Both the position numbers and the translations under genes were made by a program. Under the pieces are notes generated by a model. The model was not told where the DNA came from, did not search any database, and saw only the letters and a list, made by a program, of their open reading frames with translations. Below, in pieces: positions 44,264 through 63,310 of a stretch of DNA of 64,000 bases; position 1 is the stretch's first letter; each line of letters opens with the position of its first letter. The stretch is from a virus. The stretch is taken from the IMG/VR virus record IMGVR_UViG_3300031823_000002, positions 57,080 through 121,079 of that record; one strand, 5' to 3'.

Positions 44264-47200
44264 ATGGCTCCAGTAACCGCTTTCGACAATATGGACGACG
44301 AGCCAAGAGGGCCGGGAACGGCTGATCCGCTGGGCATCAGCCCGCTCTCTCTTGTCAAGAGAGCACCCGCCAAGGCAGATGATCCGCTGGGCATTTACCC
44401 TCTCCGCGTCCTGAAGCAAGAGGCGGCTCTGCGCAAGCCTAAGCCTATCGCACTGTCTGCAAAAAAGATCGTGCTTCCGCAGGGGTACACGCTGGATACC
44501 CCGGCAACACAGGGAAAGACGTTTACGGCAAAGGCGGCAACGCCCACTCCTGCGGCTGCGGCTACTACGGCGTCTACTCCGCCGCCAGCATCTTCTCCGC
44601 TTGAATGGCTGAGTCAGGCCGGAACGTCAGTGCTTCACGGCGTCGGCTTGCCCACGCCCAGCGAAGCAGCCAGAAAGCTGGGCGAGCATCCAGTCAAAGA
44701 AGGGTTGAGCTATATCCCCCTCATTGGTGGCCCCCAGCGGATCGTCGAAGGGGCCAAGGCGCTGTGGAGTGAGGCGCAGAGAGTCAAGGGAGAAGAGGAC
44801 GAAGCAACCAAGGCGCTGAACACTCCGGGAATACCGGCTCCGCAAAGAGCGGCGGCTTTTGCTTCCCATGAACTCTCAGCGCTTCCTTTTGTTGGCCGCT
44901 TAAAAGACGAAGCTCTGGACGCAGCTATAAAAGCGGGCGCGGAACCGGTCACTCCTACGGAAGACATCACCGATCCCAAAAAGTATCTCAGGAATTTAAA
45001 AATCGTGGCCACTAGCCCGGTAGTACTGGGCACAACAGCGGCTGCGGCGGCGCAGGCGGGTTTAGCGGCAGTGGATGGCTACAGGGCACTCAGTGACGCC
45101 TACGCGCATAAAGCCAGCAGCATGCAGCCTGAGATTCTTGATCCGCAGCAGCGTGCCTTACCCGCCAGTGCGGAGCCGCCGACCATTGAGGGGCGTGTTG
45201 CCCCACCTGCTGTACCGCCATCGGGTGCGCCGCGTGCAGCGCTGCCCGCACCGACCGAAGGCTTGTCGCCTGCGGAACAGCAAGTAGAGCAGGGAATTCT
45301 AGATCGCATTAAGGAACACCCCGAAACAGAAGCACAGGTGCGGAGTGATCTACAGGAAGTTCCACCGGAAAACAGACAGGCGGTTCTAGACGCGATCAAT
45401 CGAGAAGGGGTCGAGGCGTACCAGAGGGGCGACAAGAAAGCTGCGGAAAGAGCAGTGCAGCACGCGTGGATTCTCAAAGGGATCATGCAGGCAGAAGCGC
45501 GTGCGGCGCGTGCTGCACGTGCGACGGCTGCGGCGGTTACGCCTGCTGCGGAAGCCGCTCCAGTAACACCGGCTACGCCCATCGTTTCTTCCGACCCGCG
45601 CCTCGCTCGCCGGACCACAGAGCCAGCGACAGAAGAGCCGCAGGGGACGCTCTTTGCTACCCCCGAAACAGGCGTCACTCCTGAGGTATCACCTGCGCCA
45701 ACGCGTAGACGTGCTCCGGTCGCGACCGCTGAAGCAGAACCGGCGCAGGGAGCGCTGTTCGACACTTCGGAAGCAGAGTCCGCGATCACGCCAGCACCGG
45801 TTACTACGGAAACTGCGCCAGCGGAGGAGCCGGAAGCTACCACGACGCCCGCCCCGGAGACAGCGGCAGAACCTAAGTCGGGATATGTCCGTGAGGTTGC
45901 AAAGAAAGTTAGAGGGGCGAAAGCGGCGACTGCTGCGGTGGCTAGGCCCAGCGCCGAGGTGGAGCCGGACGAAAAGGAAAAGACAATTGGGATAACTGCA
46001 CCAGTGGGCTATGTAGGCCCGCAGGGCGAACGTGCGTGGGTTGCGGAGTACGGAAAGGGAAAAGAATTTAAAACTAAGGCGGAGGCAAAGCAGGCTGTCG
46101 CCAAATGGGAAGCCGGGTTGATGCCGATTGAGGAGTTCCATGCGCAATCTACCGCAGAGCCGCCTGCGACTCCAACAGCCGTCGCGCCAGTGATGGAACC
46201 GGAAGCGTCTGCGGCTGAACAACCGGCCACGCCATCGCCAAATCTACGCAGACAGCGTTGGTTGTACGAAGATGCAAATCGCAAGCTGGAGGAATTGAGA
46301 AAGCAGAATCCGAACACGCCATCCGCCTACCGTGCGCAGGCGGGCGCAGTTAAGAAAGCCTTCAATCGTCTTGCCAAGCAATACACAAACGAGTTTCCAC
46401 AAGATACGGAGCGGCAAGGATTGGCGGACTGGCTCAGGAAAAAGCCGGAAGACTCTATCGTGCCGCCAGTACCAGAAGAGGCCGTAGCCGCCGAACCCGA
46501 GACTCCTGCGCCTACACCGCCTACCCCCGCGCCAACTGCTAAGCCAATCACAGTAAACCGTCTTTCAGGGATGGTGTGGGAAGTTCCGGGCACGGATTAC
46601 ACCATCCACTATCTCGGTGATGACAAGTTCGATGTCCGCAAGGGCGGTGAACATATCGGTACAGCGCCGAGTGTGGGCGATGCTAAGGCTCAGATACAGG
46701 CACATCAAGCGTCAGCTTGGGAAGCACCGACGCCCGGTGAACTCGGGGCCACGGCGAGGACGAATAAAGCACGCCGCGAAGCTCTCACAGCCGCGCCGCC
46801 AACGGGTCCGAATACGGCGGTGGTGAAAGGCGCTCTCACGAACGCCGGTCTGTACGACCCGGCCACTGCGCGAGTTGTCAATCGCGCCGTCCAACAAAAT
46901 TTAATCCCGTCGCCTGAGAAGCTGGACGAGGTACTCCGGATTGCTAAGACGATTAAGGGGCTGAATCCGAAAACCACGAATACGGCGGCGGCGATTGAGG
47001 CCAGTAAATATGGCAGCATGGCAGCGCTGGGAGATTTGGCTGCGGCCAGTGAAACGGATCATCCAGCGGGTGTCGTTGCACGGGCGAGGGAGGTCAAAAC
47101 TGCGACGTTGGATACGCCTGCCGATTCGTACGTGTCGATGGCCCGCGTCACCGGAGGCAAAGTCAAGATCGGTGCTGATCCGAAAGCGCTGGCCGAAGTG

Positions 47201-50200
47201 CTTGGCTCCAGCCTCTACGGGAAAAAGCCGGTTGAAGTTGTCACCAAGGAACTGCTCCAGAACGCATGGGACGCGATCCGGCCTGAAGCTTGGCATCCCG
47301 GCAAACCTCCGAAGGATTTTGTGGGGGAAGTCACCGTCGATTTTGATCAATGGAACCGCAGCATCACGATCAGCGATAACGGCTCCGGCATGACCCGCAA
47401 GGAACTGGAAACTGTTTTCACTAACCTTGGAGCCACGGGGAAGCTCTCTCAGGCGGGGGCATCTGGCGGCTTTGGGATCGCAAAAGCGGCACCGTTCATG
47501 ATGTCGAAGAAGCTGACGGTCACCACGGTCACCAAAGAGGGCGGGAAATTCGTCGAGCACTCGTTCACGTCCACTCCGGACGAGATCGTCGGCAAAGGCG
47601 TGGAGGTCAGCACCAGAGAACTGCCGGAATGGCTGGACGATAAAAAGACCGGCACCGTCATCACGGCGCAGTTCGACGAGGATAACTGGGAGCCATGGGT
47701 GGCGGAGAGGTTTGCCCGTAAGTCGCAGCGTTCGCTTAGCGCACCGGGAACGCTGCGCGTGAACGGCGACGAATACGGCGGCACTTCAGGCGCGAAGCCG
47801 GTTGCAGCGCTGGAGCCGTCTCCCGTGGGCAGCATGACGAGGCCCGGAGCCGATATCGACCTGTTCGCCAGTTCGGAAACGGAAGTGCCTAGCTGGGGTG
47901 CGGTTTCCGTCGAGGTAAATAACAACGGAATCTACCAGTTCGACATGGAGGTATATGCGCCCGTCGAAGGGATGCAGGTGCCCAAGCGTGTCGCGGTGAA
48001 CGTGAAGGCGAATGTTAAGGAGCGCGATCCGGATTATCCGTTTCAGGCGAACCGCGAGGCGTTTCGCGATGAGCAAACAGGCAGGGACTTGAAGGAACTC
48101 ATCACGCAGAAGATTTTTGCACCGCAGGCTTCCAAGCATAGGCAGGAGATTTCCGATGCAATACGCGACCTGCCCACCATCAAAGTCGGTGCGACAGAAA
48201 TTCCGGTCTTCGATTCAGGCAGGCGGCTTACGCCCGACGAGATGCAGCAGTTGCAGTCCGACCCGGCATTCATCGATCTCGCGCACACCATCAATCAGGT
48301 CACGCAGGATGCAATCGCCAAGCTCGCGACCGCTGACCTTCCCAGCAACCTGAAGGGGCTGGGAGGAAAAATTAAAAAGATTGGCATCGTGCTCTCCGAC
48401 AAGCTGCACGGAGTTCACATCACCAATCCTGTGGACGAAAGCGATACCTACCTGTTCGTGAACCCGTTCCAGAGCCTGAAGGATGATGCGGAGCGTGCCG
48501 CCAGCCAAGTCTGGCATACGATTAAACATGAGATCGTCCACGACAAGGTGAAGGGCCATCACGAGACTTTCACCAGTACTGAGGCGGTGGTAGCTGGGGC
48601 GCTGGGAAGTAAGAGCGAACTGGCCGGAATCCAGCAACTGGAGGATGTATATGCCAACCCCGATGACCCCGAAAGAATACGCCCAGACCTTGGTTCAGCG
48701 ATACAACTCTATGAGGACTCACGTAAGCGACCAGAAGTTACAAAAGATATTTTTGGGGGCGAGGGACTCGCTGGCGGCGCTGCCCCCGCAGATGCAGGAC
48801 GAGATGAAAGTCGCCTACGACCTAGCCCAGAGGGAACTCTTCCCGGATATGTCCAGCCTCTGAAGGCGAGAGAGTCGGGGAAGCCCACAGAGGTCAAAAC
48901 CGAAGAGCGCAAGCCTGAGCCGGAATGGCTGAAGCGCAGTGCGCAGCAATACATCTCTCGACGCGGGAGTCCTCACCACGAAGCACCTGCCGGGACTCGC
49001 GACGCCCGCGCTATGGACATCGCCGACGCCTACGAGGCAATGGAGCATAATCCAAACGACCCGGCAGTGAAGGCTTCCTACGACGCCTTCAAAAAGGACA
49101 TCGACAAGCAGTGGGATTTTGCCGTCAAATCCGGCGTTGATTTCGAGCCGTGGACGAAGCCGGGACAGCCCTACGCCGACTCCGCTGCGATGAAGGCCGA
49201 CGTAGACGATAACGCCCACCTGTTCTTCTTCACTGGTGGAGAGATGCCTGCGGACCATCCGCTGGCAGCGGTCGATCCTAAGACCGGGTACACGTACAAC
49301 GACAAGCTGCGTGCGATTCACGACCTGTACGGTCACGCGGTGCATGGCTGGCAGTTCGGTGAGCGTGGCGAAGAGAACGCATGGATCACGCATTCGCAGA
49401 TGTTCTCGCGGCAGGCGATCCCGGCCTTGACCAGCGAAACGAAGGGGCAAAACAACTGGGTCAACTTCGGGCCGCACATGCGCCGCGCAGACGGCACGCT
49501 GATTAAGAAAGGCGAGGAGGGTTGGCTCGACCGTCCTCAGCGGCCCTTCGCGGAGCAGAAAGCAGGACTGCTGCCGAGGCGCTACCACTACCGCATCGAT
49601 GCGCCGCTGTCCTTTATCAGCCCGAACACTCTGAACATCCCCGGCGTCACCGAAGCACAGCGTCAATTTAAGTCAGACATCCACAACCGGTTCATCGATC
49701 AGGCGCACACCTTGGCCGACGACATGGGCATGAATGTTGTCGTCGAATCAGCGCTGGGATCGTGGAAGGGTGGAGCCGAAAACTCCATTGCGATTCGTTA
49801 CCCGTTCGGCGCTGACCCCGATCTGGTGAAGTACTACGAGGCGAACCTTGGGCGCTTGGGTTACCAGTACGCGACGGCGCGATTTACTCCGGATGTAAAC
49901 GGGAAAGATACGCTCCATCAGTTCTGGGTACAGAGTGCAAATGCCGATGCGAGCAAGATAGCGAGCTTACTCTTAGGGAATAGCATCGAAAATAGTACAA
50001 TAATTCCAGCAGAGGACGGTTACATCGTCACGCTGATCGACCCCAACGATGGGCTGCGTGAATCTGTCAGGAACCTAAAGAACGAACTGGGAGTAAAAAG
50101 TGTTGAAAATAACCGAGGTGCTGCGGAATTTCCCGGCAACTACACAGACCGAGACGCCGCAGGAAGAGACTTTCAATCAGCGATTGAAGAGATTGAGCGT

Positions 50201-51640
50201 AGAAGGCCATCCCTCCGGAGACTTCGTAGAGGGTTCGAGTCAAGGCCCGGTTACAATCTTCTCCACCGAGCCATCCGGGAAGCCCAAGAGCTAGTTCCTG
50301 CCGAGCCAGCGCCGGTTTCGGGACCGGGCACGCTGGAAGAAATTAAAAAAGAAACAAAACGGCTGCAAGGCCCACGCGGTTCGACTGTGCCGCTGATGCG
50401 CTCTGTGCTGTTGCCGCGCTACAAGATGATTGAAGATATCGCGGCGCATCTTGAAGACAACACCCGCAAAACTCTGGACCAACTGTATCCCGGTGGAACA
50501 ACCGCCGAGCACAGGGCCATGGTGAATCGGGCAGTGCGGATCGCCAAGGACGAATTAAAATACCAACTCGCTCAGGAGAACAGCGGCGCGGACTGGTACA
50601 AGGACGACATCAGAGGCCCCGCGAACTCCCTGATGTCGGAAATGAAATTACTGCATCCTGAACTCAGCGATCCGGTGAACGAGCGAATGTTTTTACTCCA
50701 CGTCGCGGCCACTTCGCCGGGTAAGACTGCGGCCTTCGATAACGTCAACGTCGCCGAGCAGGCGTACAACCTCTACAAGAAAAGGGGCGAGATACCGCTA
50801 CGGCAGGAAGACGGGACGCCGTGGGGAGCTTACGGACATGCTCCGCTCAAGACCGCTCAGGGCCTGCTGAGGTATTTCGATGGCGACGTAGGCAAGGCAA
50901 TGGAGTGGATGCTCACCAAGCACCCGCTGAAAGAAGTTGAGAATGTGAAGGCGAGGTCTGGCTACAGCAGGGACACTGTGAAAAATGCGCTGCCGCCAGA
51001 TTACGACCCGGATGCGGTGTACGGCGCGTACATTCTCGGCGAGAAGGTCGGCCCCTTCTTCATGAACCTGAACGGCATCTCCACGGAGTTGACCGTGGAT
51101 CGCTGGTTTATGCGGACATGGAACCGGCTGATGGGCACGCTGATCAATAGTGAAGGAAAGCTCCAAGACGTACCACGGGGCAAGAACGAGCGGGCTGCTA
51201 TGGTCGATGCCATCGACAAGCTGGGCAAGGAATTTGGCCTTGAAACCAGTCAGGTGCAAGCCGCACTCTGGTACTACGAGCAGGGACTTTACTCGCGGTT
51301 AGGACAGAGGGGAACCTTCGGAGGAACTTATGCCAGCGCAGCGAAAGATGTCTTCAACCTTCGATCTGAAGGTTTTACAAGCCAAGGCGAGAGAGATGCT
51401 GCGCAACGGGACGATGCCCTCCGAGGGAGCGCTGGAGGCGGCGCTGGCCCGCCTGCGGAAGGAGTACGGCCCGAAGATACTGAAGGCGAGGGAGTTGGAT
51501 CAACGGGAGAACTCTTCGGAGACACCTCCTTCGACTTCGGAGAGCCAAAAGTGATCCCGATTCAGGAAGCAAAGAGGATAGCTGAGCGGCAAAAGCCACG
51601 TGAGAAGCTTGCTGCCAGTCGAAAAGACAGGAGTCAGTGA
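44264..51640 (+). CDS. giant polyvalent protein with GHKL ATPase and HExxH motif, 2,458 aa
   Basis: Residues 1-900 are mostly low-complexity Ala/Pro/Glu with short folded islands. At about residues 980-1110 a Bergerat (GHKL) ATPase is clear: N-box ELLQNAWDA, G1 ISDNGSGM, G2 GGFGIAKAA, then GTVI. Near 1422 a HEIVH (HExxH) suggests a zinc metallopeptidase. Near 1686 RAIHDLYGHAVHGWQF marks another conserved phage domain. The C-terminal part (SPGKTAAFDNVNVAEQAYNL) is also conserved-looking. Fits the polyvalent proteins packaged and injected by some phages. Three small genes appear nested out of frame. Confidence 0.7.
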   Translation: MAPVTAFDNMDDEPRGPGTADPLGISPLSLVKRAPAKADDPLGIYPLRVLKQEAALRKPKPIALSAKKIVLPQGYTLDTPATQGKTFTAKAATPTPAAAATTASTPPPASSPLEWLSQAGTSVLHGVGLPTPSEAARKLGEHPVKEGLSYIPLIGGPQRIVEGAKALWSEAQRVKGEEDEATKALNTPGIPAPQRAAAFASHELSALPFVGRLKDEALDAAIKAGAEPVTPTEDITDPKKYLRNLKIVATSPVVLGTTAAAAAQAGLAAVDGYRALSDAYAHKASSMQPEILDPQQRALPASAEPPTIEGRVAPPAVPPSGAPRAALPAPTEGLSPAEQQVEQGILDRIKEHPETEAQVRSDLQEVPPENRQAVLDAINREGVEAYQRGDKKAAERAVQHAWILKGIMQAEARAARAARATAAAVTPAAEAAPVTPATPIVSSDPRLARRTTEPATEEPQGTLFATPETGVTPEVSPAPTRRRAPVATAEAEPAQGALFDTSEAESAITPAPVTTETAPAEEPEATTTPAPETAAEPKSGYVREVAKKVRGAKAATAAVARPSAEVEPDEKEKTIGITAPVGYVGPQGERAWVAEYGKGKEFKTKAEAKQAVAKWEAGLMPIEEFHAQSTAEPPATPTAVAPVMEPEASAAEQPATPSPNLRRQRWLYEDANRKLEELRKQNPNTPSAYRAQAGAVKKAFNRLAKQYTNEFPQDTERQGLADWLRKKPEDSIVPPVPEEAVAAEPETPAPTPPTPAPTAKPITVNRLSGMVWEVPGTDYTIHYLGDDKFDVRKGGEHIGTAPSVGDAKAQIQAHQASAWEAPTPGELGATARTNKARREALTAAPPTGPNTAVVKGALTNAGLYDPATARVVNRAVQQNLIPSPEKLDEVLRIAKTIKGLNPKTTNTAAAIEASKYGSMAALGDLAAASETDHPAGVVARAREVKTATLDTPADSYVSMARVTGGKVKIGADPKALAEVLGSSLYGKKPVEVVTKELLQNAWDAIRPEAWHPGKPPKDFVGEVTVDFDQWNRSITISDNGSGMTRKELETVFTNLGATGKLSQAGASGGFGIAKAAPFMMSKKLTVTTVTKEGGKFVEHSFTSTPDEIVGKGVEVSTRELPEWLDDKKTGTVITAQFDEDNWEPWVAERFARKSQRSLSAPGTLRVNGDEYGGTSGAKPVAALEPSPVGSMTRPGADIDLFASSETEVPSWGAVSVEVNNNGIYQFDMEVYAPVEGMQVPKRVAVNVKANVKERDPDYPFQANREAFRDEQTGRDLKELITQKIFAPQASKHRQEISDAIRDLPTIKVGATEIPVFDSGRRLTPDEMQQLQSDPAFIDLAHTINQVTQDAIAKLATADLPSNLKGLGGKIKKIGIVLSDKLHGVHITNPVDESDTYLFVNPFQSLKDDAERAASQVWHTIKHEIVHDKVKGHHETFTSTEAVVAGALGSKSELAGIQQLEDVYANPDDPERIRPDLGSAIQLYEDSRKRPEVTKDIFGGEGLAGGAAPADAGRDESRLRPSPEGTLPGYVQPLKARESGKPTEVKTEERKPEPEWLKRSAQQYISRRGSPHHEAPAGTRDARAMDIADAYEAMEHNPNDPAVKASYDAFKKDIDKQWDFAVKSGVDFEPWTKPGQPYADSAAMKADVDDNAHLFFFTGGEMPADHPLAAVDPKTGYTYNDKLRAIHDLYGHAVHGWQFGERGEENAWITHSQMFSRQAIPALTSETKGQNNWVNFGPHMRRADGTLIKKGEEGWLDRPQRPFAEQKAGLLPRRYHYRIDAPLSFISPNTLNIPGVTEAQRQFKSDIHNRFIDQAHTLADDMGMNVVVESALGSWKGGAENSIAIRYPFGADPDLVKYYEANLGRLGYQYATARFTPDVNGKDTLHQFWVQSANADASKIASLLLGNSIENSTIIPAEDGYIVTLIDPNDGLRESVRNLKNELGVKSVENNRGAAEFPGNYTDRDAAGRDFQSAIEEIERRRPSLRRLRRGFESRPGYNLLHRAIREAQELVPAEPAPVSGPGTLEEIKKETKRLQGPRGSTVPLMRSVLLPRYKMIEDIAAHLEDNTRKTLDQLYPGGTTAEHRAMVNRAVRIAKDELKYQLAQENSGADWYKDDIRGPANSLMSEMKLLHPELSDPVNERMFLLHVAATSPGKTAAFDNVNVAEQAYNLYKKRGEIPLRQEDGTPWGAYGHAPLKTAQGLLRYFDGDVGKAMEWMLTKHPLKEVENVKARSGYSRDTVKNALPPDYDPDAVYGAYILGEKVGPFFMNLNGISTELTVDRWFMRTWNRLMGTLINSEGKLQDVPRGKNERAAMVDAIDKLGKEFGLETSQVQAALWYYEQGLYSRLGQRGTFGGTYASAAKDVFNLRSEGFTSQGERDAAQRDDALRGSAGGGAGPPAEGVRPEDTEGEGVGSTGELFGDTSFDFGEPKVIPIQEAKRIAERQKPREKLAASRKDRSQ
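48651..48863 (+). CDS. nested +1-frame gene inside the giant gene, 70 aa
   Basis: ATG at 48651 has a perfect GGAGG (48640-48644) six bases upstream. The product (MPTPMTPKEYAQTLVQRYNS; MQDEMKVAYDLAQREL) is a compact charged helical protein that looks natural. The overlapping giant frame here is a low-complexity linker between the HExxH and HDLYGHAVH domains. Real translation is inferred. Confidence 0.5.
   Translation: MPTPMTPKEYAQTLVQRYNSMRTHVSDQKLQKIFLGARDSLAALPPQMQDEMKVAYDLAQRELFPDMSSL
50100..50294 (+). CDS. nested +1-frame gene inside the giant gene, 64 aa
   Basis: GTG at 50100, GGGAG at 50089-50093. Product MLKITEVLRNFPATTQTETP ... FNQRLKRLSVEGHPSGDFVE is a plausible folded small protein, and the giant frame here is a linker. 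Same relative frame (+1) as the other two nested candidates. TTG 50103 is a possible alternative start. Confidence 0.45.
   Translation: MLKITEVLRNFPATTQTETPQEETFNQRLKRLSVEGHPSGDFVEGSSQGPVTIFSTEPSGKPKS
51330..51554 (+). CDS. nested +1-frame gene at the end of the giant gene, 74 aa
   Basis: ATG at 51330 with GGAGGA (51320-51325) just upstream. The amphipathic body FDLKVLQAKAREMLRNGTMP then EGALEAALARLRKEYGPKIL is a convincing helical protein, while the giant frame over the same DNA is Gly/Ala/Arg low complexity. Best supported of the three nested genes. Confidence 0.55.
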   Translation: MPAQRKMSSTFDLKVLQAKAREMLRNGTMPSEGALEAALARLRKEYGPKILKARELDQRENSSETPPSTSESQK

Positions 51641-53602: not shown

Positions 53603-54340
53603 TCAAGGGGTTTTAGCCAGCTTCCACTCTTTGGGTAGCACGCCGAAGGGGTGAGTAAATTGTTCTTCTCCGACTACACCGCCCCACTTGGCGCGGTAAT
53701 ACTCACGATACAGCGGGAAAGTAACACTGTTCAGGTGGCGCAGATAGGCATCACTGTTGATCGTCTGGCTCCCATGCCCCTCCGGGCCGTGTTTTACCAC
53801 GATTCCCGAACTGATACGCTCCCAGCCAGCGAGGTCCATGCGCCGAAAATAGTCATTGTCGGAAAAGTAGGCGGCAAAGGTGGTGTCGTAACCGCCTATC
53901 GCCCCATAGACTTTTGGGTTATAGACGCATAGTACGTCGTGCAGGGTGTAGATAACTCCCCATTTAGGATGAGGAAGAGGAGGAAGAGGATTATTGATAG
54001 CGCGAGCATACTCCAGCAGCTTCTCGCATGCACCTTCCGGGATAACTGCATCGTTATGCATGTGTATGCAATAAGACTTGCCCCGGCGCAGCGTCTCTTC
54101 GAGTTCCCAGTTCATGCTCTGGGTGAATGACAGCGGAACAGGCGGACGAAAGACTTTGACCGGGGGCAACCATCTCGCATATGCGCCGTTCTCGGTCGGA
54201 ACCATGATGTTTGCGACCATGCCGTCCGGGGAATTGTCGATGATGGTCAGATCGTCGTGCAGGCAGGTGACCGAATTTACCGCGTTTATCAGCAGGTCAG
54301 GCCGGTTTACGACAGGAATAAAGGCCGCAAAGTCAGACAT
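53603..54340 (-). CDS. family 2-like glycosyltransferase, 245 aa
   Basis: GT-A fold cues: N-terminal strand-helix with FIPVVNRPDLLINAVNS, an acidic IHMHNDAVIPEGA in place of the usual DxD, and later GGYDTTFAAYFSDNDYFRRM, the acceptor ED-type region. It would transfer a sugar from a nucleotide sugar to phage or host glycans or to DNA. First of four sugar-related genes on the minus strand. Confidence 0.65.
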   Translation of the reverse strand: MSDFAAFIPVVNRPDLLINAVNSVTCLHDDLTIIDNSPDGMVANIMVPTENGAYARWLPPVKVFRPPVPLSFTQSMNWELEETLRRGKSYCIHMHNDAVIPEGACEKLLEYARAINNPLPPLPHPKWGVIYTLHDVLCVYNPKVYGAIGGYDTTFAAYFSDNDYFRRMDLAGWERISSGIVVKHGPEGHGSQTINSDAYLRHLNSVTFPLYREYYRAKWGGVVGEEQFTHPFGVLPKEWKLAKTP

Positions 54341-54388
54341 GGTGAGATTCTAAAATTTAATTTCAGTCGCTACCAGAGTCTTTCCGAA

Positions 54389-54904
54389 TCATGGCGCGAT
54401 CCAGATGGTGTCCACTACTTCGACGCCGGGAATCAATTCATCGACGATGCGCTTCACATCCGGCCAGCCCGCGAAGCCGTAATCGTGGCCGCAGAAGGTT
54501 CCGCCTTCGGCCAGCAGCGGTTGCCATGCCATGATGTCCTGCCGCACGTTGTATTCATCATGGGCAGCGTCGATAAAAATCAGGTCGAAACGCCGACTGA
54601 GCTTGACCGCCTTGCGAGCGGCCCAGATCGAAGCGTGGTTCATGGGGCGCACGTTGGTTAGATGGGCGGTGTTGGCGCAAAACACGTCGTAGTACCAGCC
54701 ATCCGTACCGCATTCGGACCAGATATCGACGGAGTAGACTCGCGCCTCCGTGTTCTCGGCCAGAGCGCATGTACTGCGCCCTTTGTAGCTTCCGATCTCC
54801 ACGATGCTGCCGCCCTTGGGAACCTTCGCTGCCGCTTGCGCCAGCCAGAGCAACTCGGTTTCGCTCATCCAACCCGGAATCGTCAACGCCTTCTCGATGT
54901 TCAT
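54389..54904 (-). CDS. SAM-dependent methyltransferase-like, 171 aa
   Basis: Rossmann motif I IVEIGSYKGRST near residue 35, then a VYSVDIW strand (motif II) and FDLIFIDAAHDEYNVRQDIM (motif III-IV). Fits the class I family that includes sugar O-methyltransferases (Methyltransf_24 type). Likely methylates a glycan built by the neighbouring transferases. It overlaps the next upstream gene by 4 nt. Confidence 0.65.
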   Translation of the reverse strand: MNIEKALTIPGWMSETELLWLAQAAAKVPKGGSIVEIGSYKGRSTCALAENTEARVYSVDIWSECGTDGWYYDVFCANTAHLTNVRPMNHASIWAARKAVKLSRRFDLIFIDAAHDEYNVRQDIMAWQPLLAEGGTFCGHDYGFAGWPDVKRIVDELIPGVEVVDTIWIAP

Positions 54905-55470
54905 ACGCCCATCCCACTCGTCGGTACGTTAATAATAGGGGCAATCTCCGGGAAAGCGATATAGGAATAACGCTCTTTGAGGGCATCACAAAAGATGCCG
55001 TCCAGCGTGTACTCATCCCGGTTGGGCCACTCCGCGATCTCCCGCTTGATGACCATGTTGGCGGTATCGACATGGCAGCAGCGCGGGTCTTCGGAGAAGA
55101 AAATCCGGCCATGGCGCAGGATGGGGAAGACGGCCCAGTCAGGACGCGCCTGATCGAGAGCGCGGTAGATATCGGTGAGCGCGTCGGAGCGCTGGAAGAA
55201 GTTGTCGTCGTCCAGATAGATGCAGTAGTCGCCGGTCGCCAGCCGCCAGCCGATCCCACGGGGCGTGTTCCCGAAATTGCCGTAACGCTTGCCCAGACAG
55301 ACGATCTGGCGGTCGGGGTGCCGGATGGAATTCAGGAGATCGGAATTAAGGGGACCGCCGTCCACGACGACGATGTGTTGCCACAGGTCCAGTTGGGTTT
55401 CGATGGACTGGCAGCAACGAAAGAGACTGTCACGCTGAAGCGTGGCGGTGATAATGCTGAACATCGGCAT
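54901..55470 (-). CDS. family 2 glycosyltransferase, 189 aa
   Basis: Classic GT2 start MPMFSIITATLQRDSLFRCC, the nucleotide-sugar helix, and YLDDDNFF as the metal-binding DxD near residue 90. At 189 aa it is a compact domain with no membrane segment. Stop overlaps the methyltransferase start, so they are one transcript. Confidence 0.7.
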   Translation of the reverse strand: MPMFSIITATLQRDSLFRCCQSIETQLDLWQHIVVVDGGPLNSDLLNSIRHPDRQIVCLGKRYGNFGNTPRGIGWRLATGDYCIYLDDDNFFQRSDALTDIYRALDQARPDWAVFPILRHGRIFFSEDPRCCHVDTANMVIKREIAEWPNRDEYTLDGIFCDALKERYSYIAFPEIAPIINVPTSGMGV

Positions 55471-55485
55471 AACAGCCTCATTGTC

Positions 55486-55788
55486 TCATTCCTTTTTGAG
55501 ATCGCCGCTTGGTTCAGCGGCTTGCTCTATGAACGTCATCATGGCCTCTGCCGCCTCCGTCCGACTGGCATTGGACGTGACATAAAACGTATCCGCGCCG
55601 CGATCAGGAAAGATCAGCAAGACGAAGCCGTAAGTGGGGAATGCTTCGGTGAGGGTGGCGGTTAGTTTTCCGCCAACCTCCTTCAGCGCGGCTGCTAGCT
55701 CAGGATCAGGACTATCACCTATGCGCATGCGAAGCTTACCTTCTCCCGAGATCGCCTTCGTGAACTTCGAAGTCTTGGGGCGTGTCAC
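55486..55788 (-). CDS. hypothetical protein, 100 aa
   Basis: Starts at a GTG and overlaps the next upstream gene by 53 nt. Short alpha/beta protein (LTEAFPTYGFVLLIFPDRGA; RTEAAEAMMTFIEQAAEPS). No motif. Reading is helped by the tight minus-strand packing. Confidence 0.55.
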   Translation of the reverse strand: MTRPKTSKFTKAISGEGKLRMRIGDSPDPELAAALKEVGGKLTATLTEAFPTYGFVLLIFPDRGADTFYVTSNASRTEAAEAMMTFIEQAAEPSGDLKKE

Positions 55789-56128
55789 CTTTCTTGATAT
55801 GCATCGCTAGGTGTAACGCCTGCCAGCGCCGCCGCAAGTCGGTGCGGTGCATTTCCTTCGGTGGCACAGCTTCGCAAAACATGCAAAAGGTTGGAACCCC
55901 GAAGCCGCGTCCGCTACGACGAATAATGCTGGCCAAGAGCGAGAATGACCCTGCGGGCAAACTGGCGTGGAGCGACATCATGCTCGTCCGCAGCATGGCT
56001 GAGGAAACCTTTGATGTTTCCGACTGCATCAGCGACTGCAATCGTTTCGGCAAACGAGGCATCATGGGAATTACCGTGCCGCTCGGTTGCGTGGACTGTG
56101 TGGGCTGCTGTTCTTTGCGTGCTGCCAT
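55736..56128 (-). CDS. hypothetical protein with CxxC ... HxxxH end, 130 aa
   Basis: ATG at 56128 has AGGAG 12 nt upstream on the minus strand. The C-terminal part (FCMFCEAVPPKEMHRTDLRR; ALHLAMHIKKG) holds a CxxC and a late HxxxH that could bind zinc. The first 70 residues overlap, in another frame, the end of the zinc-finger gene by 215 nt. Part of the overlap may be only one of the two frames; the C-terminal part is the better supported. Confidence 0.45.
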   Translation of the reverse strand: MAARKEQQPTQSTQPSGTVIPMMPRLPKRLQSLMQSETSKVSSAMLRTSMMSLHASLPAGSFSLLASIIRRSGRGFGVPTFCMFCEAVPPKEMHRTDLRRRWQALHLAMHIKKGDTPQDFEVHEGDLGRR

Positions 56129-56813
56129 TGGCGTGTATTAGCTCCTCAGTGGTGGCTGGAAGGATTTGAAGTCCGCGTGGATCGACCTGATGTTTGCGCT
56201 TAAGGTGAGCCGCCAAGAATTTCAATGCCTTAAAAGTGTTGGGGCATTGCGGACACTGAACCCTGCCGTTCGAATTCACGGCTACCTTCGGATTCACGAT
56301 GACCCCATTGGTTCGTTGTTCGATCCGTTGTTCTTGGCGACGCTCCAGCGCAACTTGAGTCTTGAGGTGATTGCGCCCAAGAACGCCATGCTTGAAACGG
56401 CGGTGCTTCCCAAGTTCGGTTGCCGTAGGAAAGTCAATCTTTCGGTGTAGGCTTTGCATGCATTCCGGACAACGAAAGATACCTTGCTGAGCAAGAGCCG
56501 CGTAGTGTCTGGCAGCTTTATCGGAAGAGACGTTTACGGTTGCCTTGTCAATCGCCGTGTTGAGCTTTTTCTTTTTTGCATAACTGGCTTTGATCGCTAC
56601 CTTGGCTTTCTTCCGTGCTTCGGGCGAATGCCAGCCGCTATCGGAGCGCCTCTTTAGCTGCGACGCTTTAATGTTTTCCTTACGTTTCTCAATAGCCTCT
56701 GGGGGCAGCGGCTCTCCGTTTCGCAAGAGATTGTGAGCCATCGCCATGTGGGACGATAAGCCAGAGTTACTCTTGAACTCTTTCTCGCATTCAGGAACTG
56801 GACATTTTGTCAT
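55914..56813 (-). CDS. protein with three C2H2 zinc fingers, 299 aa
   Basis: Finger 1 (residues 4-27): C-x4-C-x3-F-x5-L-x2-H-x4-H. Finger 3 (starting VQCPQCPNTF): C-x2-C-x3-F-x5-L-x2-H-x4-H. Both are textbook C2H2 fingers with the core Phe and Leu. The middle finger (CPECMQSLHR ... ELGKHRRFKH) has a longer loop. A basic helical region (KKAKVAIKASYAKKKKLN) lies between. Probably DNA or RNA binding. AAAGGAGAG precedes the ATG. The last 215 nt overlap the gene at 55736. The family is rare in phages. Confidence 0.7.
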   Translation of the reverse strand: MTKCPVPECEKEFKSNSGLSSHMAMAHNLLRNGEPLPPEAIEKRKENIKASQLKRRSDSGWHSPEARKKAKVAIKASYAKKKKLNTAIDKATVNVSSDKAARHYAALAQQGIFRCPECMQSLHRKIDFPTATELGKHRRFKHGVLGRNHLKTQVALERRQEQRIEQRTNGVIVNPKVAVNSNGRVQCPQCPNTFKALKFLAAHLKRKHQVDPRGLQILPATTEELIHANGSTQRTAAHTVHATERHGNSHDASFAETIAVADAVGNIKGFLSHAADEHDVAPRQFARRVILALGQHYSS

Positions 56814-56901
56814 TAACTCTCCTTTACTTCAATTCAGTCTGTTTACTTGTTTTTGTTCTAAATTAAATTCAAATTTTCTCAGTTTGAAGGGGAACAAGGT
56901 G

Positions 56902-58122
56902 TTACTGCTTTGCGAGTGCTTTTCGAAACCACGCGTCAAAGCGGGGCCAAACGTTACTCCAGTCGAGTTGACTAGGCTGATTCACCCTCTTCCCTAGAAA
57001 ATACTCTATCCTGCCCACCCAGTCCTTAGCGTCAAAGATCGGGCGGTAGCAGTTGTACACGCCTTCCAAATGAAGACGAACTGGATTTATTAACAGGTCT
57101 TGGTCTACAAAATCAACTGCGCCTGCGTATTTTCCGTGAATGCAGGGTGTGCCACAAAACAAGCTCTCGGCTATCGGATAGCCAAAACCCTCACCCGCTC
57201 CGATCCCAAGGGTGACATCGCAAGCCGAGTAAGCTTGGGCCATTTCGTCATCGTCCAGATAGCCCAGCGAGAACATGGCAGTGTCAGCGAGTCCGAAGTC
57301 CACCAGCAGGGCAAAGAGCGACCAGTAGTTCTCCATCTTGTCGGTATGAATCCAGAATCTCGCCTTGGGGTGATGACGATGGAGGAGCATCTCGCAAATC
57401 TCCGCCCACAGTCCCCAGTCCTTGCGGGCCTGATTGGTGGCGACCGCGCCGATCAGGATTTCGTCCTCCCGAATCGGTGGCGGCGTTGTGCCACGCAGGT
57501 TGCCGCAGCCAGTCAGCGACGTGAAGTTCTTACGCGCCTCGCTCCGGTCGCGGGGGTAGAAGATCGCAGGGTCGATGCCGTGCGGGATCGATCCTAAGTC
57601 TCTTTCCTGTGAACGCTCGTTCCCCAGAGAGCGGCGGATGATGTCTTCGCTCCACTGTCCGTAGGCCAGAATACGGTCGAAGCCTAGAAGGCTCTGGACG
57701 AGCGGGTAGGAGAGCGTGTCATGCGGCCCTTCAGCATCGACCGGATTGTAAATCCAGCGCTCGATCTTGGCGGAGGTGAGAAATTGCTTCAGAGGTTCGA
57801 CCCCGCACATTACGTTGGGCCGCGAGAACCAGCCGAGACGACCGGCGTCCCAGACAAAGAGAATGACGCCCGCCTGTTTACCGGCCCAGTCCGCCCAGAC
57901 CTCGGGAAGCGTAGGGAGGACAAAGTCGGCCATGCCTTCAACTGCGTACTGGGGAAATTTAAATCTCTGTGATCCGGGGCCACCATAGCCAAAGCTGGCG
58001 ATGCGGCAAACGTCTTTAAGATTCGCGTCAGCTCGTATAGCGATTTCGCCAGCAATTCGGCCCAATCCTGTTCCTGCGGACACAGCGTCGCTAACGATCA
58101 GCACAGGGGTTGGTGCGACCAT
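56902..58122 (-). CDS. family 4-like glycosyltransferase, 406 aa
   Basis: GT-B fold with the donor-site signature GIGAGEGFGYPIAESLFCGT near residues 303-322 and an N-terminal Rossmann-like start. Uses nucleotide sugars to extend glycans. It is the largest of the four sugar enzymes and lies at the head of the minus-strand cluster, next to the divergent XRE promoter region. Confidence 0.75.
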   Translation of the reverse strand: MVAPTPVLIVSDAVSAGTGLGRIAGEIAIRADANLKDVCRIASFGYGGPGSQRFKFPQYAVEGMADFVLPTLPEVWADWAGKQAGVILFVWDAGRLGWFSRPNVMCGVEPLKQFLTSAKIERWIYNPVDAEGPHDTLSYPLVQSLLGFDRILAYGQWSEDIIRRSLGNERSQERDLGSIPHGIDPAIFYPRDRSEARKNFTSLTGCGNLRGTTPPPIREDEILIGAVATNQARKDWGLWAEICEMLLHRHHPKARFWIHTDKMENYWSLFALLVDFGLADTAMFSLGYLDDDEMAQAYSACDVTLGIGAGEGFGYPIAESLFCGTPCIHGKYAGAVDFVDQDLLINPVRLHLEGVYNCYRPIFDAKDWVGRIEYFLGKRVNQPSQLDWSNVWPRFDAWFRKALAKQ

Positions 58123-58156: not shown

Positions 58157-58218
58157 AAGCGTATTTACGCATCCATACGCTTACTTGTGTTGACACTGAA
58201 ACCGGGTGGTTTTATTCT
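58157..58218 (+). promoter_or_regulatory. strong promoter with operator-like inverted repeat
   Basis: TTGACA at 58190-58195, exactly 17 nt, then TATTCT at 58213-58218: a near-consensus sigma70-type promoter. Just upstream, AAGCGTA (58157-58163) and TACGCTT (58176-58182) form an inverted repeat 19 bp centre to centre, a likely repressor operator. The -10 ends 6 nt before the ATG at 58225, so transcription should start at or next to the start codon, giving a leaderless or nearly leaderless message. It also faces the divergent glycosyltransferase gene. Confidence 0.65.
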
Positions 58219-58224
58219 TGAAGT

Positions 58225-58497
58225 ATGGGACAAACGGCGGTAGTAAGAAAACAGCAAACGAGGGCGACAAAAGTGGCCAACACCTTAACCGAGGCTGAGG
58301 TACTCAACATCATGAAGGCCGAACAGGGGGCACAGTCCCTCCGTGAATTCGCGGCCACGATTGGCGTCACCCCGGCATACATTTCGGACATCTACAACGG
58401 CAGGCGTCACCCCGGCGCGAAGGTTCTGGATCATTTCGGCATTGGCAAAACGAGCCAGATTATCGTAGAGTACGTATTCTTCAGAAAGAAGAAATAG
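58225..58497 (+). CDS. XRE-type regulator, probably leaderless, 90 aa
   Basis: The turn SLREFAATIGVTPAYISDIY (residues about 38-57) plus GRRHPG is a Cro/CI-type helix-turn-helix. No ribosome-binding site precedes ATG 58225, and the promoter places the transcript start at that codon, as for lambda CI from PRM. It probably controls itself through the inverted repeat at 58157-58182, and with it the array operon. Targets are inferred. Confidence 0.65.
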   Translation: MGQTAVVRKQQTRATKVANTLTEAEVLNIMKAEQGAQSLREFAATIGVTPAYISDIYNGRRHPGAKVLDHFGIGKTSQIIVEYVFFRKKK

Positions 58498-58741: not shown

Positions 58742-59080
58742 ATGCCGCGTCACGTCTTCGTTGGGGACGCCGTACATCTGAAGCAGTCTCCCTGTCCCGT
58801 CTGCGGCCACAAGCTCGACGGCCTCACCCCCGCCAAATTTGACACCCCTCCTGCCAAGCAGGACGACTGGGTTCCGACCAACACCTCTTTCAGTATCTGC
58901 ATCTACTGCGCATCCATGCTCCGTTTTGAGGGTGAACGCAAACTGCGCAAAGTCACCCCTGAAGACCTCGTGGAACTGCTCAACGCTGAGCCGGAACTCT
59001 TCAGCCTGCTGCATAAGATGGCCGACTTCGCGAACGGGATGATCCGGGATCGGCAGCGCAAGAACTACAGGAAAAACTGA
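58742..59080 (+). CDS. zinc-binding protein, 112 aa
   Basis: ATG directly after the upstream stop. CPVCGHKL near residue 18 and CIYCASML near residue 53 form a four-cysteine zinc site. The rest is helical (DLVELLNAEPELFSLLHKMA). Directly upstream of the gene abutting the array, so it could be an array-related accessory; that is guilt by association only. Confidence 0.55.
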   Translation: MPRHVFVGDAVHLKQSPCPVCGHKLDGLTPAKFDTPPAKQDDWVPTNTSFSICIYCASMLRFEGERKLRKVTPEDLVELLNAEPELFSLLHKMADFANGMIRDRQRKNYRKN

Positions 59081-59403
59081 TGCAGGCCAGCGACAGGCTC
59101 AAAACGGTGCTGGGGCTGGGAGACGTGGTCGCCCTGTTCCCGGTGCTTAAGGATTGGAGCACGGATGAGCTACGGGCACTCCTTCGGGATATTGAGGAGT
59201 ACGCCTCTGTGAGTCACAAGGCCATCGATAGAGCGTGGGAAACGGTCGCGTTGTCGCCCAACATTTTCCTGAGTGAAGCGTTGTCGAAGACGGTTGACGA
59301 GTATCGCGACGAAAAGAAGATAGAAGTGATGCAGATTATGTCGGAAATTAGTTCGGTGGCGATGTTCTATTTGAACCAACGTGGAATTAAAATTCCCGAG
59401 TGA
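59080..59403 (+). CDS. helical protein ending inside the first array repeat, 107 aa
   Basis: Starts at an overlap with the upstream stop. Almost all helix (VVALFPVLKDWSTDELRALL; KIEVMQIMSEISSVAMFYLN). Its last codons GAG TGA are the first bases of the first array repeat (59398-59407), so the array begins exactly at this gene's end. No family. Confidence 0.6.
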   Translation: MQASDRLKTVLGLGDVVALFPVLKDWSTDELRALLRDIEEYASVSHKAIDRAWETVALSPNIFLSEALSKTVDEYRDEKKIEVMQIMSEISSVAMFYLNQRGIKIPE

Positions 59404-61327
59404 ACCAATGGGTATGAGAGCGCCAGAGCCTGAGAGTGAAAACCAATAGTTGTGAGCGTGCCAAAGTTTGGGAGTGAACCATACTAATTGCGAGTGCCAT
59501 GATCAATGAGTGAACCGGGCAGGACGAGCGTGCCATGAAGGACGAGTGAACCACATCCAGCGCGAGTGCCATGATTGAAGAGTGAACCAATAATTGGGAG
59601 AGCACCAGAAAGAGGGAAGTGAACCAACGCTGGGAAGAGTGCCAAAGTACGGGAGTGCCAACCATATCCTCTGAGGGTGCCAAATATCGAGCGTGAACCA
59701 AATACGACGTGCGTGCCAATGTAGATGAGTGGGAACCAATATGTGGGAGCGTGCCATGAAACAAGAGTGGGAAAACCAAGTCTGCTGAGAGGGCCAAGAA
59801 AGGTGAGTGCAGCCAAATCTGATGAGAGTGCCAAAGGTGGTGAGCGAAAACCAGAGTGCTTGAGCGTGCCCGGAAAAGTGAGTGAAACCGACTCTACAGA
59901 GGGTGCCAAAATACGGGAGTGAAACCGACTACGGCGTGAGCACCAAAACCCATGAGTGAACCGGAGTTTGTGAGGGTGCCATATCCGGGGAGTGAACCAA
60001 GTGCAAGGAGAGTGCCAAGGTTCATGAGTGAACCACAAACAGCGAGAGCACCATAGGAGTTGAGTGCAACCACGAAGGCTGAGAGTGCCATGAACTCCGA
60101 GTGGAAACCAAATTACGGGAGCGTGCCATATCCGGCGAGTGAACCAGCGAGTAGCGCGAGCGCCAAAGTCTGGGAGTGAACCGATGAGCATGAGCGTGCC
60201 AGAGGTGAGGAGTGAAAACCAATGATGTTGCGAGTGCCGAAAGTCAAGAGTGCAACCCATGTCAAGTGATAGCGCCAAGGGTTGAGAGTGAAACCATATT
60301 TGCCGCGAGTGCCACGCATCGAGAGTGAACCATACATGATGCGAGCACCATGTAATGTGGAGTGAGCCGAAGTAATTGCGAGCGCCAACTACTCAGAGCG
60401 AACCGAATCAGGAGAGAGTGCCAAGAGACGAGTGTGAACCAAATTCATGGAGAGTGCCAAGGGTCGGGAGTGTCCAGCCAGACATTCCGCGAGCGCCAAA
60501 GTCTGGGAGCGGAAATACAACCATGAGCTATGCGAGTACCGGGAGTCCCGAGTGAACCAATGAAGAATGAGAGTGCCATGATTAAGGAGTACCAACCAAA
60601 GGAAGTGAGAGTGCCATTTAGCTGGAGTGAGCCATACGTGACGCGAGTGCCATAGTACCTGAGCGAACCAATGAAACGGAAAGCACCAAAAGGACAGAGT
60701 GAACCAGTTCTTGCGCGAGCACCAAAATCGATGAGTGAACCAGATAACCGGCGAGTGCCAGAAGATGAAGAGTGAACCATCATCGAGGAGTGTGCCAAGG
60801 TTAATGAGTGAACCGTACAGAGGAGAGCACCATAGTTGAGGAGTGAACCAGCGTCAGTGAGCCGCACCACAGTGGAAGAGTGAACCGAGAAAGCGGAGGA
60901 GCACCAACGGAGTGGGAGTGAACCAACGTCAAGGAGAGTGCCAATGTGCCAGAGTGCAACCATGATCGTGGAGAGCGCCACTGAACTGGAGTGAACCAAT
61001 CATGCCGCGAGCACCAAGACGAGTGAGTGAACCATCAACAAAGCGAGTGCCAGAAGTAGGGAGTGAACCGATACTGAAGAGTGCGCCCAGAGATGCGAGT
61101 GAACCACAAGGTATGCGAGCACCATAGGCTAAGAGTGAACCAAACATAGCGGAGAGCACCATGAAAAGGGCGTGAACCATCAAATCGGAGAAGCACCAGA
61201 AGACGAGAGTGAACCAGAAATCCAGAGAGCACCATATGATGAGAGTCGAACCAAGCTGTGAGGGAGCACCAGAGCGGAGAAGTGAATCAAAATCGTAGAG
61301 AGCACCATCGTTCAGGAGTGAAAATCA
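59398..61327 (+). repeat. TIGR-like guide array, first block
   Basis: Alternating 10-nt repeats A (GAGTGAACCA and variants) and B (GAGAGCACCA, GAGCGTGCCA, GCGAGTGCCA and variants) are separated by unique 8-nt spacers. For example, A 59408 edge: repeat 59398-59407, spacer ATGGGTAT, B 59416-59425, spacer GAGCCTGA, next A from 59434. The period is 36 bp (10+8+10+8). By eye I count 53 A repeats. A repeats vary in length by insertion of bases after GAGTG (10 to 17 nt), while B repeats stay at 10-11. No coding frame is conserved. Matches the tandem interspaced guide RNA (TIGR) layout. Likely transcribed from the + strand with the upstream operon. Confidence 0.85.
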
Positions 61328-61328
61328 G

Positions 61329-62222
61329 ATGAGCACCACGCCGATCATTGAAGCCATGGAGCCGCTCAAACGGCTCACGAAAGATTTAGCCAAAGCAGCC
61401 GTCACCCTGTCACCCCACGAAGCGCGGTTTCTGGTAGACGCGTATTACATCATGCAGCACAACCGTATTTCCGCTGCGCATCAGGTACGCACGCTGGACA
61501 AAGGCGATGAGCCGCACAGCGTGATTGACTGGTTCGCAGTACAGAGCGAGATGCTGGAGAATCAGGTCAAACGCGCTCTGGATAAGTGGACCGACGGCCA
61601 GCCGGTCGCGGTCTGGGCGAAGTCGATCTGCGGAATCGGGCCGGTGATCGCGGCAGGGCTGGAAGCCAACATCGATATCAGCCGCTGCGAAACGGCAGGA
61701 CATATCTGGTCGTTTGCTGGACTGAACCCGGATATGAAGTGGGAGAAGAAAACCAAGCGGCCTTACAACGCTTCACTCAAAACCCTGTGCGCCTTTAAGC
61801 TGGGCGAGTCGTTCGTCAAGGTGCAGTCCAACGACAACGACATCTACGGCAGAGTCTTCGTCACCAGAAAGAAACAGGAAGCAGAGTGGAATGAAGCCCT
61901 GAAGTTTGCCGATCTGGCCAAAGAGAGAGCCACCAGCGTTAACAAGAAAACCGATGCCTACAAGGCGTACAGCGTGGGCAAGCTGCCCCCGGCCCACATC
62001 CATGCGCGGGCACGGCGCTACGCGGTAAAACTGTTTTTAGCGCATTACCATATGGTGGCCTACTTCGTGCATCACCAGAAGCTGCCGCCCTTTCCCTACG
62101 CCTTCTCGCACCTCGAAGGACACATCCACTTCATCGCGCCACCCCACGCCGATCTGGTGGATGGCCTGCTGCCTGCGCTCAAAAAGTACGAAGACGAACT
62201 GCGCAAGCGCGGGGAAAAATAA
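61329..62222 (+). CDS. Tas-like RNA-guide-associated protein (IS110-C/Nop-like domain, no nuclease), 297 aa
   Basis: Residues about 98-134 carry a Transposase_20 / IS110 C-terminal signature (CGIGPVIAAGLEANIDISRC, then AGHIWSFAGLNP), a domain related to the Nop domain of box C/D RNP proteins. Residues 1-95 are helical. Residues 135-297 are helical and basic, suited to RNA (RRYAVKLFLAHYHMVAYFVH). The IS110 N-terminal DEDD nuclease is absent, as are HNH and RuvC motifs. The gene is embedded in the guide array. By the TIGR-Tas scheme this would be a nuclease-less TasA-like protein that binds tigRNA. Start ATG with AGGAG (61314-61318), both formed by array sequence. Confidence 0.7.
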   Translation: MSTTPIIEAMEPLKRLTKDLAKAAVTLSPHEARFLVDAYYIMQHNRISAAHQVRTLDKGDEPHSVIDWFAVQSEMLENQVKRALDKWTDGQPVAVWAKSICGIGPVIAAGLEANIDISRCETAGHIWSFAGLNPDMKWEKKTKRPYNASLKTLCAFKLGESFVKVQSNDNDIYGRVFVTRKKQEAEWNEALKFADLAKERATSVNKKTDAYKAYSVGKLPPAHIHARARRYAVKLFLAHYHMVAYFVHHQKLPPFPYAFSHLEGHIHFIAPPHADLVDGLLPALKKYEDELRKRGEK

Positions 62223-62237
62223 AAATCCAAGCGACTG

Positions 62238-63310
62238 GAGAGCACTATAAAGAGGGAGTGAATCATAAATTGGGAGAGTGCCAGACATGGTGAGTGAACC
62301 ATGATTGCGGAGAGCACCATAAAAGAAGAGTGAACCAGAGTTCGAGTGAGCACCAAGAGTCCAGAGTTCGAGTGAACACCAAGAGTAGAGAGTGAAACCA
62401 GAAATCCGGAGAGTGCCAAGAATAAAGAGTGAACCCAGTGGTGGGAGCGTACCAATGATCTGGAGTGAATCCAACATCGCTGCGAGTGCCAGAGTACAAG
62501 AGTGAACCATCATCGGAGAGAGGACCATCTTACGGGAGTGAAAACCAAACATCGCGAGAGCACCCAGATCAGTGAGTGAACCAAGAAGCGTGGGAGTACC
62601 AGTGTCACTGAGTGAACCTAGTGGTGGGAGAGCGCCAATGTGTTGGAGTGAACCAGACAACCGGCGAGCACCATAGTGCAGGAGTGAACCACGGTCGAAG
62701 AGAGTGCCAAAAAGAGCAGAGTGAGCCATACGTGAAGCGGGTGCCATAGTACCTGAGCGAACCAACTAGGCATGCGAGTACCAATTCAAGGGAGTGAGCC
62801 AAGTCCCAAGAGAGCGCCACGAGGCAGGAGTTGAACCAGAATTGTTGCGAGCACCACATTAAGCGAGTGAACCAGCTTTAATGCGAGTACCAAAGCCAGC
62901 GAGTGAACCTGTGTACCAGAGGGCACCCAGATGAGTGAGTGAACCAATTATCACGCGAGCACCAGCGTCAAGGAGTGAACCATCATCAAAGCGAGCACCA
63001 CCGCACGGGAGTGAACCATACATCGAGAGAAGCACCAGAGAATCGGCGTGAAACCAAATTTGAGGAGAGTACCAGAGTTTGGGAGTGAGCCATTCAAAGA
63101 GAGCGTACCAAAGTGTAGGAGTGAACCGCACCACGGGAGAGTACCAGAATCAGGGAGTGAAACCATCTCCAACGCGAGCACCAATGTGCCTGAGTGAACC
63201 AGCGATCACGGCGAGCACCAAGACCAGAGAGTGAACCATCAATGAAGCGAGTGCCCAAACGAGAGAGTGAACCATCTCCCATGAGAGTGCCAGAAGTAGG
63301 GAGTGAGCCA
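62238..63310 (+). repeat. TIGR-like guide array, second block
   Basis: Same alternating A/B repeats and 8-nt spacers after the tas-like gene. It begins with B repeat GAGAGCACTA (62238-62247) and ends with A repeat GAGTGAGCCA (63301-63310), giving by eye 30 A repeats. A degenerate repeat end (AATCCA, then spacer AGCGACTG at 62230-62237) reaches back to the tas stop. The next gene's ribosome-binding site starts 11 nt after the last repeat. Includes a 26-bp tandem duplication at 62335-62386. Confidence 0.85.
62335..62386 (+). repeat. 26-bp tandem duplication inside the array
   Basis: 62335-62360 and 62361-62386 are the same 26-bp sequence apart from one G-to-A change. The unit breaks the normal 36-bp phase and contains parts of an A-type and a B-type repeat. 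It shows one way in which the array changes length. Confidence 0.8.

Follow-up and report, generated by a model that had tools for sequence, protein, structure and literature searches.

A large TIGR-TasA guide system in a tailed phage, probably directed at other mobile elements

The stretch of DNA analyzed here (the window) comprises 64,000 nucleotides (nt), bases 57080-121079 of the 121,079-base virus record IMGVR_UViG_3300031823_000002, and carries a tandem interspaced guide RNA (TIGR) system in which a gene for a Tas protein, tas (61329..62222, + strand), is enclosed by two long arrays of short repeats and spacers. The overlapping ends of the record make a complete, circularly permuted genome probable; its genes, including those for a terminase, a major head protein, a DnaB helicase, and tRNAs, are those of a tailed phage. 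TIGR-TasA systems combine dual-repeat arrays with a Tas protein made of a solo Nop domain, as at the Flavonifractor plautii locus (Faure et al. 2025, PMC12045711).

Array 1 (59398..61327, +), as delimited by a dynamic-programming parser, consists of 52 complete units and a last, partial edge repeat, and array 2 (62223..63310, +) consists of approx. 30 units, the first edge repeat being truncated (TAAAAATCCA) at the tas stop codon. Outside the window, at record bases 54132-54618 (L007:14132-14618), lies a third array, which has 13 units in the same orientation and is separated from tas by 62 kb or, the other way round the circle, by 57 kb; it is also found in a sister phage (IMGVR_UViG_3300045012_000066, or G001, the window phage being G000). 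Together with the approx. 82 two-part guides around tas, its 13 guides bring the genome to approx. 95. Each unit is built in the order edge repeat (GAGTGAACCA), spacer A (8 nt), loop repeat (GMGMGYRCCA), and spacer B (8 nt), both repeats being 10 nt long. The period is mostly 36 nt and otherwise 35-40 nt, since the edge repeat takes small insertions, often an additional A or other bases before CCA. A garbled stretch occurs in array 2 (62328-62389). The parser scored 1038 for array 1 and 591 for array 2, whereas dinucleotide shuffles of the array stretches reached at most 15.7 and other stretches of the window at most 10.0. An earlier reading made from the letters alone (the sequence-only reading) had described this 36-bp alternation of two 10-nt repeats with 8-nt spacers, in blocks of 53 and 30 periods with one gene between them and approx. 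165 spacers, and both the pattern and its counts were borne out by the parser.

Both repeats follow the pattern G-N-G...CCA. In particular, positions 1, 3, 5, 8, and 9 are identical at 96-100% in each, and A occupies position 10 in 97% of the loop repeats and 80% of the edge repeats; by analogy with TasR, the motifs common to the two would represent box D and box C. In the loop repeats of arrays 1 and 2, position 2 or 4 (rarely both) departs from A, and TG or CA predominates at positions 6-7. Among the spacers scored in the window phage and its sister, 283 of 312 are exactly 8 nt long. No spacer pair is present twice among the 95 units of the window phage, although a few single spacers recur. 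The spacers have a G+C content of 0.43, compared with 0.57 for the genome, are rich in A and G, and show position-specific biases. No Rfam family matches the array, and its repeats of 10 nt and spacers of 8 nt, which are within the 8-12 nt that characterize both elements of TIGR arrays, fall outside the 25-36-nt repeats, similar-sized spacers, and cas genes that define CRISPR-Cas. The array was also considered as coding DNA and rejected: long open reading frames (ORFs) run across it on the minus strand because the antisense of the repeats has no stops; however, units of 35-40 nt shift the frame.

The arrays fill the spaces between genes. The ORF at 59080-59403 stops at the TGA contained in the first edge repeat of array 1; at the other end, this array's last edge repeat (GGAGTGAAAATCAG) directly precedes the tas ATG and provides a Shine-Dalgarno-like GGAG; and beyond array 3, the next gene begins 3 nt past the last edge repeat. 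A similar layout at the tas start is found in a related phage from the survey described below (G011), and an array begins at the tas stop codon in G011, G006, and L003. It is a possible idea that Tas, by binding edge repeats, controls its own translation (autoregulation). The tas start codon itself (in the stretch 61300-61335) sits in loop-repeat-like sequence (ATGAGCACCA), as it does in G011.

The tas gene encodes a protein of 297 amino acids (P0001) with a Nop/IS110-C domain, recognized by NCBIfam, Pfam, PDB sequence searches, and fold comparison. It scores 184.9 bits with the NCBIfam profile NF052498.1 (TIGR_Tas_endo; cut-off 100), and its sole Pfam domain is PF02371 (Transposase_20; E 7.6e-5). 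The best PDB sequence match is TasR (9mty; E 8e-15), and TasH (21kl) matches with E 1e-6; residue 62 of the window protein aligns to TasR residue 140, and residue 90 to TasH residue 136. An AlphaFold2 model is all-helical (predicted local distance difference test, pLDDT, 81.5; predicted template modeling score, pTM, 0.79), and the nine best PDB matches found with it by Foldseek are all TasH or TasR (E ~1e-5), followed by IS110-family recombinases. The identification as a TIGR-Tas system proposed from the letters is thus upheld by a curated profile, by sequence matches, and by fold, including the kinship with Tas, Nop, or IS110-C structures that had been set beforehand as its test. As Pfam and NCBIfam reveal no RuvC, HNH, or DEDD domain, the protein is of the TasA subtype by domain content. 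The full-length IS110 profile of NCBIfam (transpos_IS110) gives 23 bits against a cut-off of 140, PADLOC has no match for tas, and INPHARED holds no relative of the protein. Database labels are misleading here: PHROG 4285, which matches the window protein and also the Tas of the isolate Acidobacteriaceae KBS 96 (1e-54), is named 'transposase', and NF052498.1 is named 'endonuclease' although it covers the nuclease-less TasA.

The system is therefore closest in kind to published TIGR-TasA, with which it shares a solo Nop/IS110-C protein without nuclease, a phage setting, arrays on both sides of the gene in which edge and loop repeats alternate between short spacers, a 36-nt period, and truncated terminal edge repeats. 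It differs in size, as the locus holds approx. 82 units and the genome 95, compared with 'most often 5 to 15' (PMC12045711), a contrast that confirms the earlier impression of unusually many spacers. Moreover, its spacers are of 8 rather than 9 nt; a third array lies 62 kb away; box D reads GAG/GNG instead of UG; and the arrays are wedged between genes whose stop and start codons fall in or beside terminal edge repeats, and no terminator was found. TIGR-TasH of Salicola phage CGphi29 (PDB 21kl, 9w04, 9vzx, and others) is the nearest solved fold, is likewise phage-borne, and has 16 nt of total spacer per guide; however, it possesses an N-terminal HNH nuclease that the window protein lacks. TasR shares the same Nop domain and is the best sequence match in the PDB, yet its N-terminal RuvC nuclease (residues before ~140) is missing here. 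The IS110/IS621 bridge-RNA recombinases have the Transposase_20 domain in common with the window protein and supply the next-best folds (8wt6, 8wt9, 9t56), whereas no N-terminal DEDD catalytic domain was found in it, and a guide array takes the place of the bridge RNA.

When the repeats alone were used to scan 2.9 million viral contigs of IMG/VR, 12 contigs were found besides the sister phage, and 11 of them carry a Tas gene; the twelfth, in which no Tas match was found, is 30.8 kb long and may be a fragment. The terminase of G011 is 84% identical to that of the window phage, and the other repeat-positive phages share little but Tas with it. Because, G011 aside, little else is shared, the array type and Tas travel together. 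Arrays in trans also occur elsewhere: G013 has at least five separate arrays and G011 four, and in several phages they lie tens of kb from tas.

The sister phage shows how such a guide set changes. The two genomes are approx. 97% identical over most aligned blocks and 98.4% identical over the 2 kb that precede array 1. Between the two tas genes, 15 of 894 bases differ, none of them changing an amino acid, and tas is under strong purifying selection. By comparison, of 93 distinct guides in the window phage and 90 in its sister, 31 are identical, all in the same order; nine further pairs differ at no more than 3 of 16 bases, seven share one half, and the rest are private. An alignment of units yields 46 aligned and 49 private units per side, the private ones being spread over the arrays in blocks. 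In shared spacers, substitutions amount to 1.4% in A and 7.3% in B, the latter inflated by swapped halves, and are otherwise near the divergence of the genomes. Approx. 12 spacers have two clearly different partners within the pair, compared with ~0.5 expected by chance. Since the shared order is kept, private blocks are spread, spacer substitutions stay near genome divergence, and spacers are re-paired, guide sets appear to change by loss of units, block replacement, and reassortment at repeats rather than by spacer mutation or polar addition, with the caveat that both genomes are metagenome assemblies.

In published TIGR-Tas targeting, spacers A and B pair with opposite strands, and cleavage leaves 8-nt 3' overhangs (PMC12045711). 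A target was accordingly read as A, 0-2 nt, and the reverse complement of B on one strand, an order derived here from the overhang geometry. In the phage's own genome, no guide has a perfect bipartite site, either under this geometry or under three other spacer orders with gaps of -2 to +4, and there is none in the sister and 14 other TIGR records (16 in all). One-mismatch sites are at chance level (18, compared with 14.6, standard deviation 3.7, for permuted spacer pairs). Across TIGR phages of different groups, two pairs of guides agree within 2 edits of 16, compared with 0.05 expected by permutation. In one of these, between G009 and G011, 15 of 16 positions agree, the flanking repeats differ, and the phages are largely unrelated; the other links the window unit at 62901 with a unit of G011. 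On one reading, such sharing would reflect common targets. The guide at 62901 has one perfect match, in a tail-fibre-like gene of IMGVR_UViG_3300050821_000966 (L177), which comes from the same metagenome as G011 and provides a weak lead.

A candidate target was found in a related system. The soil isolate Acidobacteriaceae KBS 96 carries a prophage (with integrase, exonuclease VIII, and replication initiator genes) that encodes a related TasA (56% identity) and whose TIGR-TasA system comprises six guides with repeats GAGCGAGCCA/GAGAGAACCA. Exact searches of the whole 6.7 Mb genome with the six guides, three gaps, and reversed-pattern controls yielded one perfect site: the guide TAAAAGCA/TTCGATTC matches TAAAAGCA|GAATCGAA at 6,329,962 at 16 of 16 positions without a gap. 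The first-order Markov expectation of perfect sites is 0.062 for the six guides over all three gaps and 0.014 for this guide; the controls gave no perfect site, and the other five guides have no exact target anywhere in the genome. The site is located 26 nt into a gene of 86 amino acids (codons 9-14) that resembles excisionases and regulators (PHROG 66 and 575, Pfam HTH_17). Within ~9 kb of it lie genes for a tyrosine integrase, an XRE repressor, a replication-O-like protein, an HK97-type capsid, and a prohead protease. This satellite-like element (6.323-6.332 Mb; L270:3000-12054) is on the same chromosome as the TIGR prophage, and a second guide has a gap-free 14/16 site in its replication-like gene, which is weak alone. 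Its gene make-up is, we assume, that of a capsid-carrying phage satellite (capsid-forming phage-inducible chromosomal islands, cf-PICIs). Capsids related to its own were seen at 36 soil virus loci. These observations, one case in a related system, fit a scenario in which the KBS 96 prophage keeps a resident satellite in check by blocking that element's early regulator.

Taken as a whole, the data are best explained by a cleavage-free TIGR-TasA system of a ~121 kb tailed phage that is aimed at other mobile elements, an explanation that we regard as probable though far from secure. By analogy with TasR and TasH, the arrays would be transcribed and cut into tigRNAs of ~36 nt, each bound by a TasA dimer, and spacers A and B would pair with opposite strands of an adjoining 16-bp DNA site. 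Lacking a nuclease, TasA would unwind and bend this site on binding, leaving it uncut, and would thereby block transcription or replication there. Two further steps are less secure: the targets would be other mobile elements residing in the same host (satellites, prophages, competing phages) rather than the phage itself, and the repertoire would shift within the arrays by recombination, loss, block replacement, and swapping of half-guides, without addition at one end. A more specific version appears rather doubtful at present: that these are fast-turning, cleavage-free repertoires against rival elements, notably the regulator and excisionase genes of satellites, and that they are renewed by exchange of units and half-guides, including trans arrays, with no leader-end acquisition.

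Several results weigh against a role directed at mobile elements. Searches with all guides in terminase-related phages and Tas-bearing contigs from cellular genomes remained at chance level, as did those in the 36 loci related to the KBS 96 satellite capsid. IMG/VR scans for the two shared guides returned 90 and 71 stretches, which were judged chance-like because the genes are scattered and the G+C content is low. In Halomonas NO4, no perfect match was present in the 0.6 Mb examined; of two one-mismatch sites, the one examined is in a core (cytidylate kinase-like) gene. The evidence from KBS 96 is a single hit for which the whole-genome expectation (0.06) is too high to neglect, and the mobile-element setting of the site was assessed only afterwards. 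Moreover, TasR in E. coli stopped only plasmid maintenance and not the entry of plasmids or phages (PMC12045711). The use against competing phages or elements, which the sequence-only reading had put forward as a guess, is favored on indirect evidence and one candidate target in a related system; no target was found for the window guides in the loci and scans listed above.

The most serious rival, although an unlikely one, is that the array silences host chromosomal genes or promoters in host takeover or in the maintenance of lysogeny. A TasA without nuclease would spare the host, many guides suit many genes, and the one perfect match in a lysogen is on the host chromosome, though inside an integrated element. 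However, the 6.7 Mb genome of the KBS 96 host contains no exact target for five of the prophage's six guides, and replacement of half of the guides between sister phages is fast for conserved host genes. The turnover likewise bears on the proposal, made for TasA by Faure et al., that the protein and its tigRNA form an RNA-guided DNA-bending aid to recombination or integration. TasR bends its target DNA by ~180 degrees (PMC12045711), the kinship with IS110 is clear, and the window phage has a serine recombinase gene; yet this gene is far from the arrays, and one or a few guides would suffice for integration sites, whereas ~95 changing guides are not expected, so that the proposal appears improbable.

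Control of the phage's own genes (e.g., late genes or lysogeny), which had also been raised from the sequence and for which TasA could serve as a programmable repressor, is very improbable: no perfect self-site exists under the four geometries and gaps searched, and one-mismatch sites do not exceed chance. Finally, variable repeats, units that drift from 35 to 40 nt, and the garbled stretch in array 2 might be expected of a decaying or neutral minisatellite beside an IS110-like gene. However, the spacers are unique and held at 8 nt, the repeats are kept and recur in trans arrays, tas is found with the same repeats in phages that are largely unrelated, and tas itself is strongly constrained, which makes this the most remote of the explanations considered.

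Array 1, tas, and array 2 belong to a run of genes in one direction that follows a possible promoter (58190..58218, +; TTGACA, 17 nt, TATTCT), a consensus match only, as the search found five such sites compared with 2.8 expected by chance. The run proceeds from a helix-turn-helix (HTH) gene through three small genes to array 1, tas, and array 2, and no terminator-like site was found on the + strand between the promoter and the end of array 2. The HTH gene at its head (58225..58497, +) encodes a small Cro/repressor-like protein (Pfam HTH_3, E 7e-6; PHROG HTH/repressor families), and its tie to the array is positional only. A second promoter-like site (58158-58130) is divergent from the first. 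The adjoining block on the opposite strand (53603-58122, -) contains three glycosyltransferase-like genes, a methyltransferase gene, and a gene for a protein with C2H2-type zinc-finger motifs. Further away, a 2458-amino-acid ORF (44264-51640, +) has long low-complexity Pro/Ala/Glu stretches. A ParB-HTH-like protein (L007:1278-2252, -) is a weak match below the Pfam cut-off and is encoded far from tas; some TasA loci are flanked by ParB-like genes (Faure et al. 2025, PMC12045711). The window phage also encodes a Ro60-like protein with TROVE and vWA domains (L005:10793-12184, +). Two tRNA-like Rfam matches (L005:9125-9186 and 10034-10095) lie 0.7-1.7 kb upstream of its gene and, since ARAGORN calls neither as a tRNA, may be tRNA-like Y RNAs. 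Among sequenced phages, the terminase is nearest to those of Tunturiibacter (Acidobacteriota) phages, at 30% identity. As the cellular genomes with close Tas relatives are mostly Acidobacteriota, soil bacteria of this phylum are the likely hosts.

TIGR-TasA is a known kind of system (2025), and the one described here is exceptional in its size and its distant third array. New are the ~95 guides per phage, the array 62 kb away, the turnover between sister phages, the lack of self-targets, and the candidate in KBS 96. Faure et al. (PMC12045711) left open the natural targets of TIGR systems, the role of nuclease-less TasA, and the growth of arrays. The occurrence of trans arrays implies that guides are undercounted when only the 5 kb on either side of tas are searched, the range used in the discovery paper (PMC12045711). 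With near-isogenic sister phages and very large guide sets, one can follow gain, loss, and shuffling directly and discount self-regulation. The prophage and satellite of KBS 96 offer a testable natural guide-target pair in an isolate, and if repertoires of this type are indeed directed against rival elements, KBS 96 would hold the first natural TIGR target.

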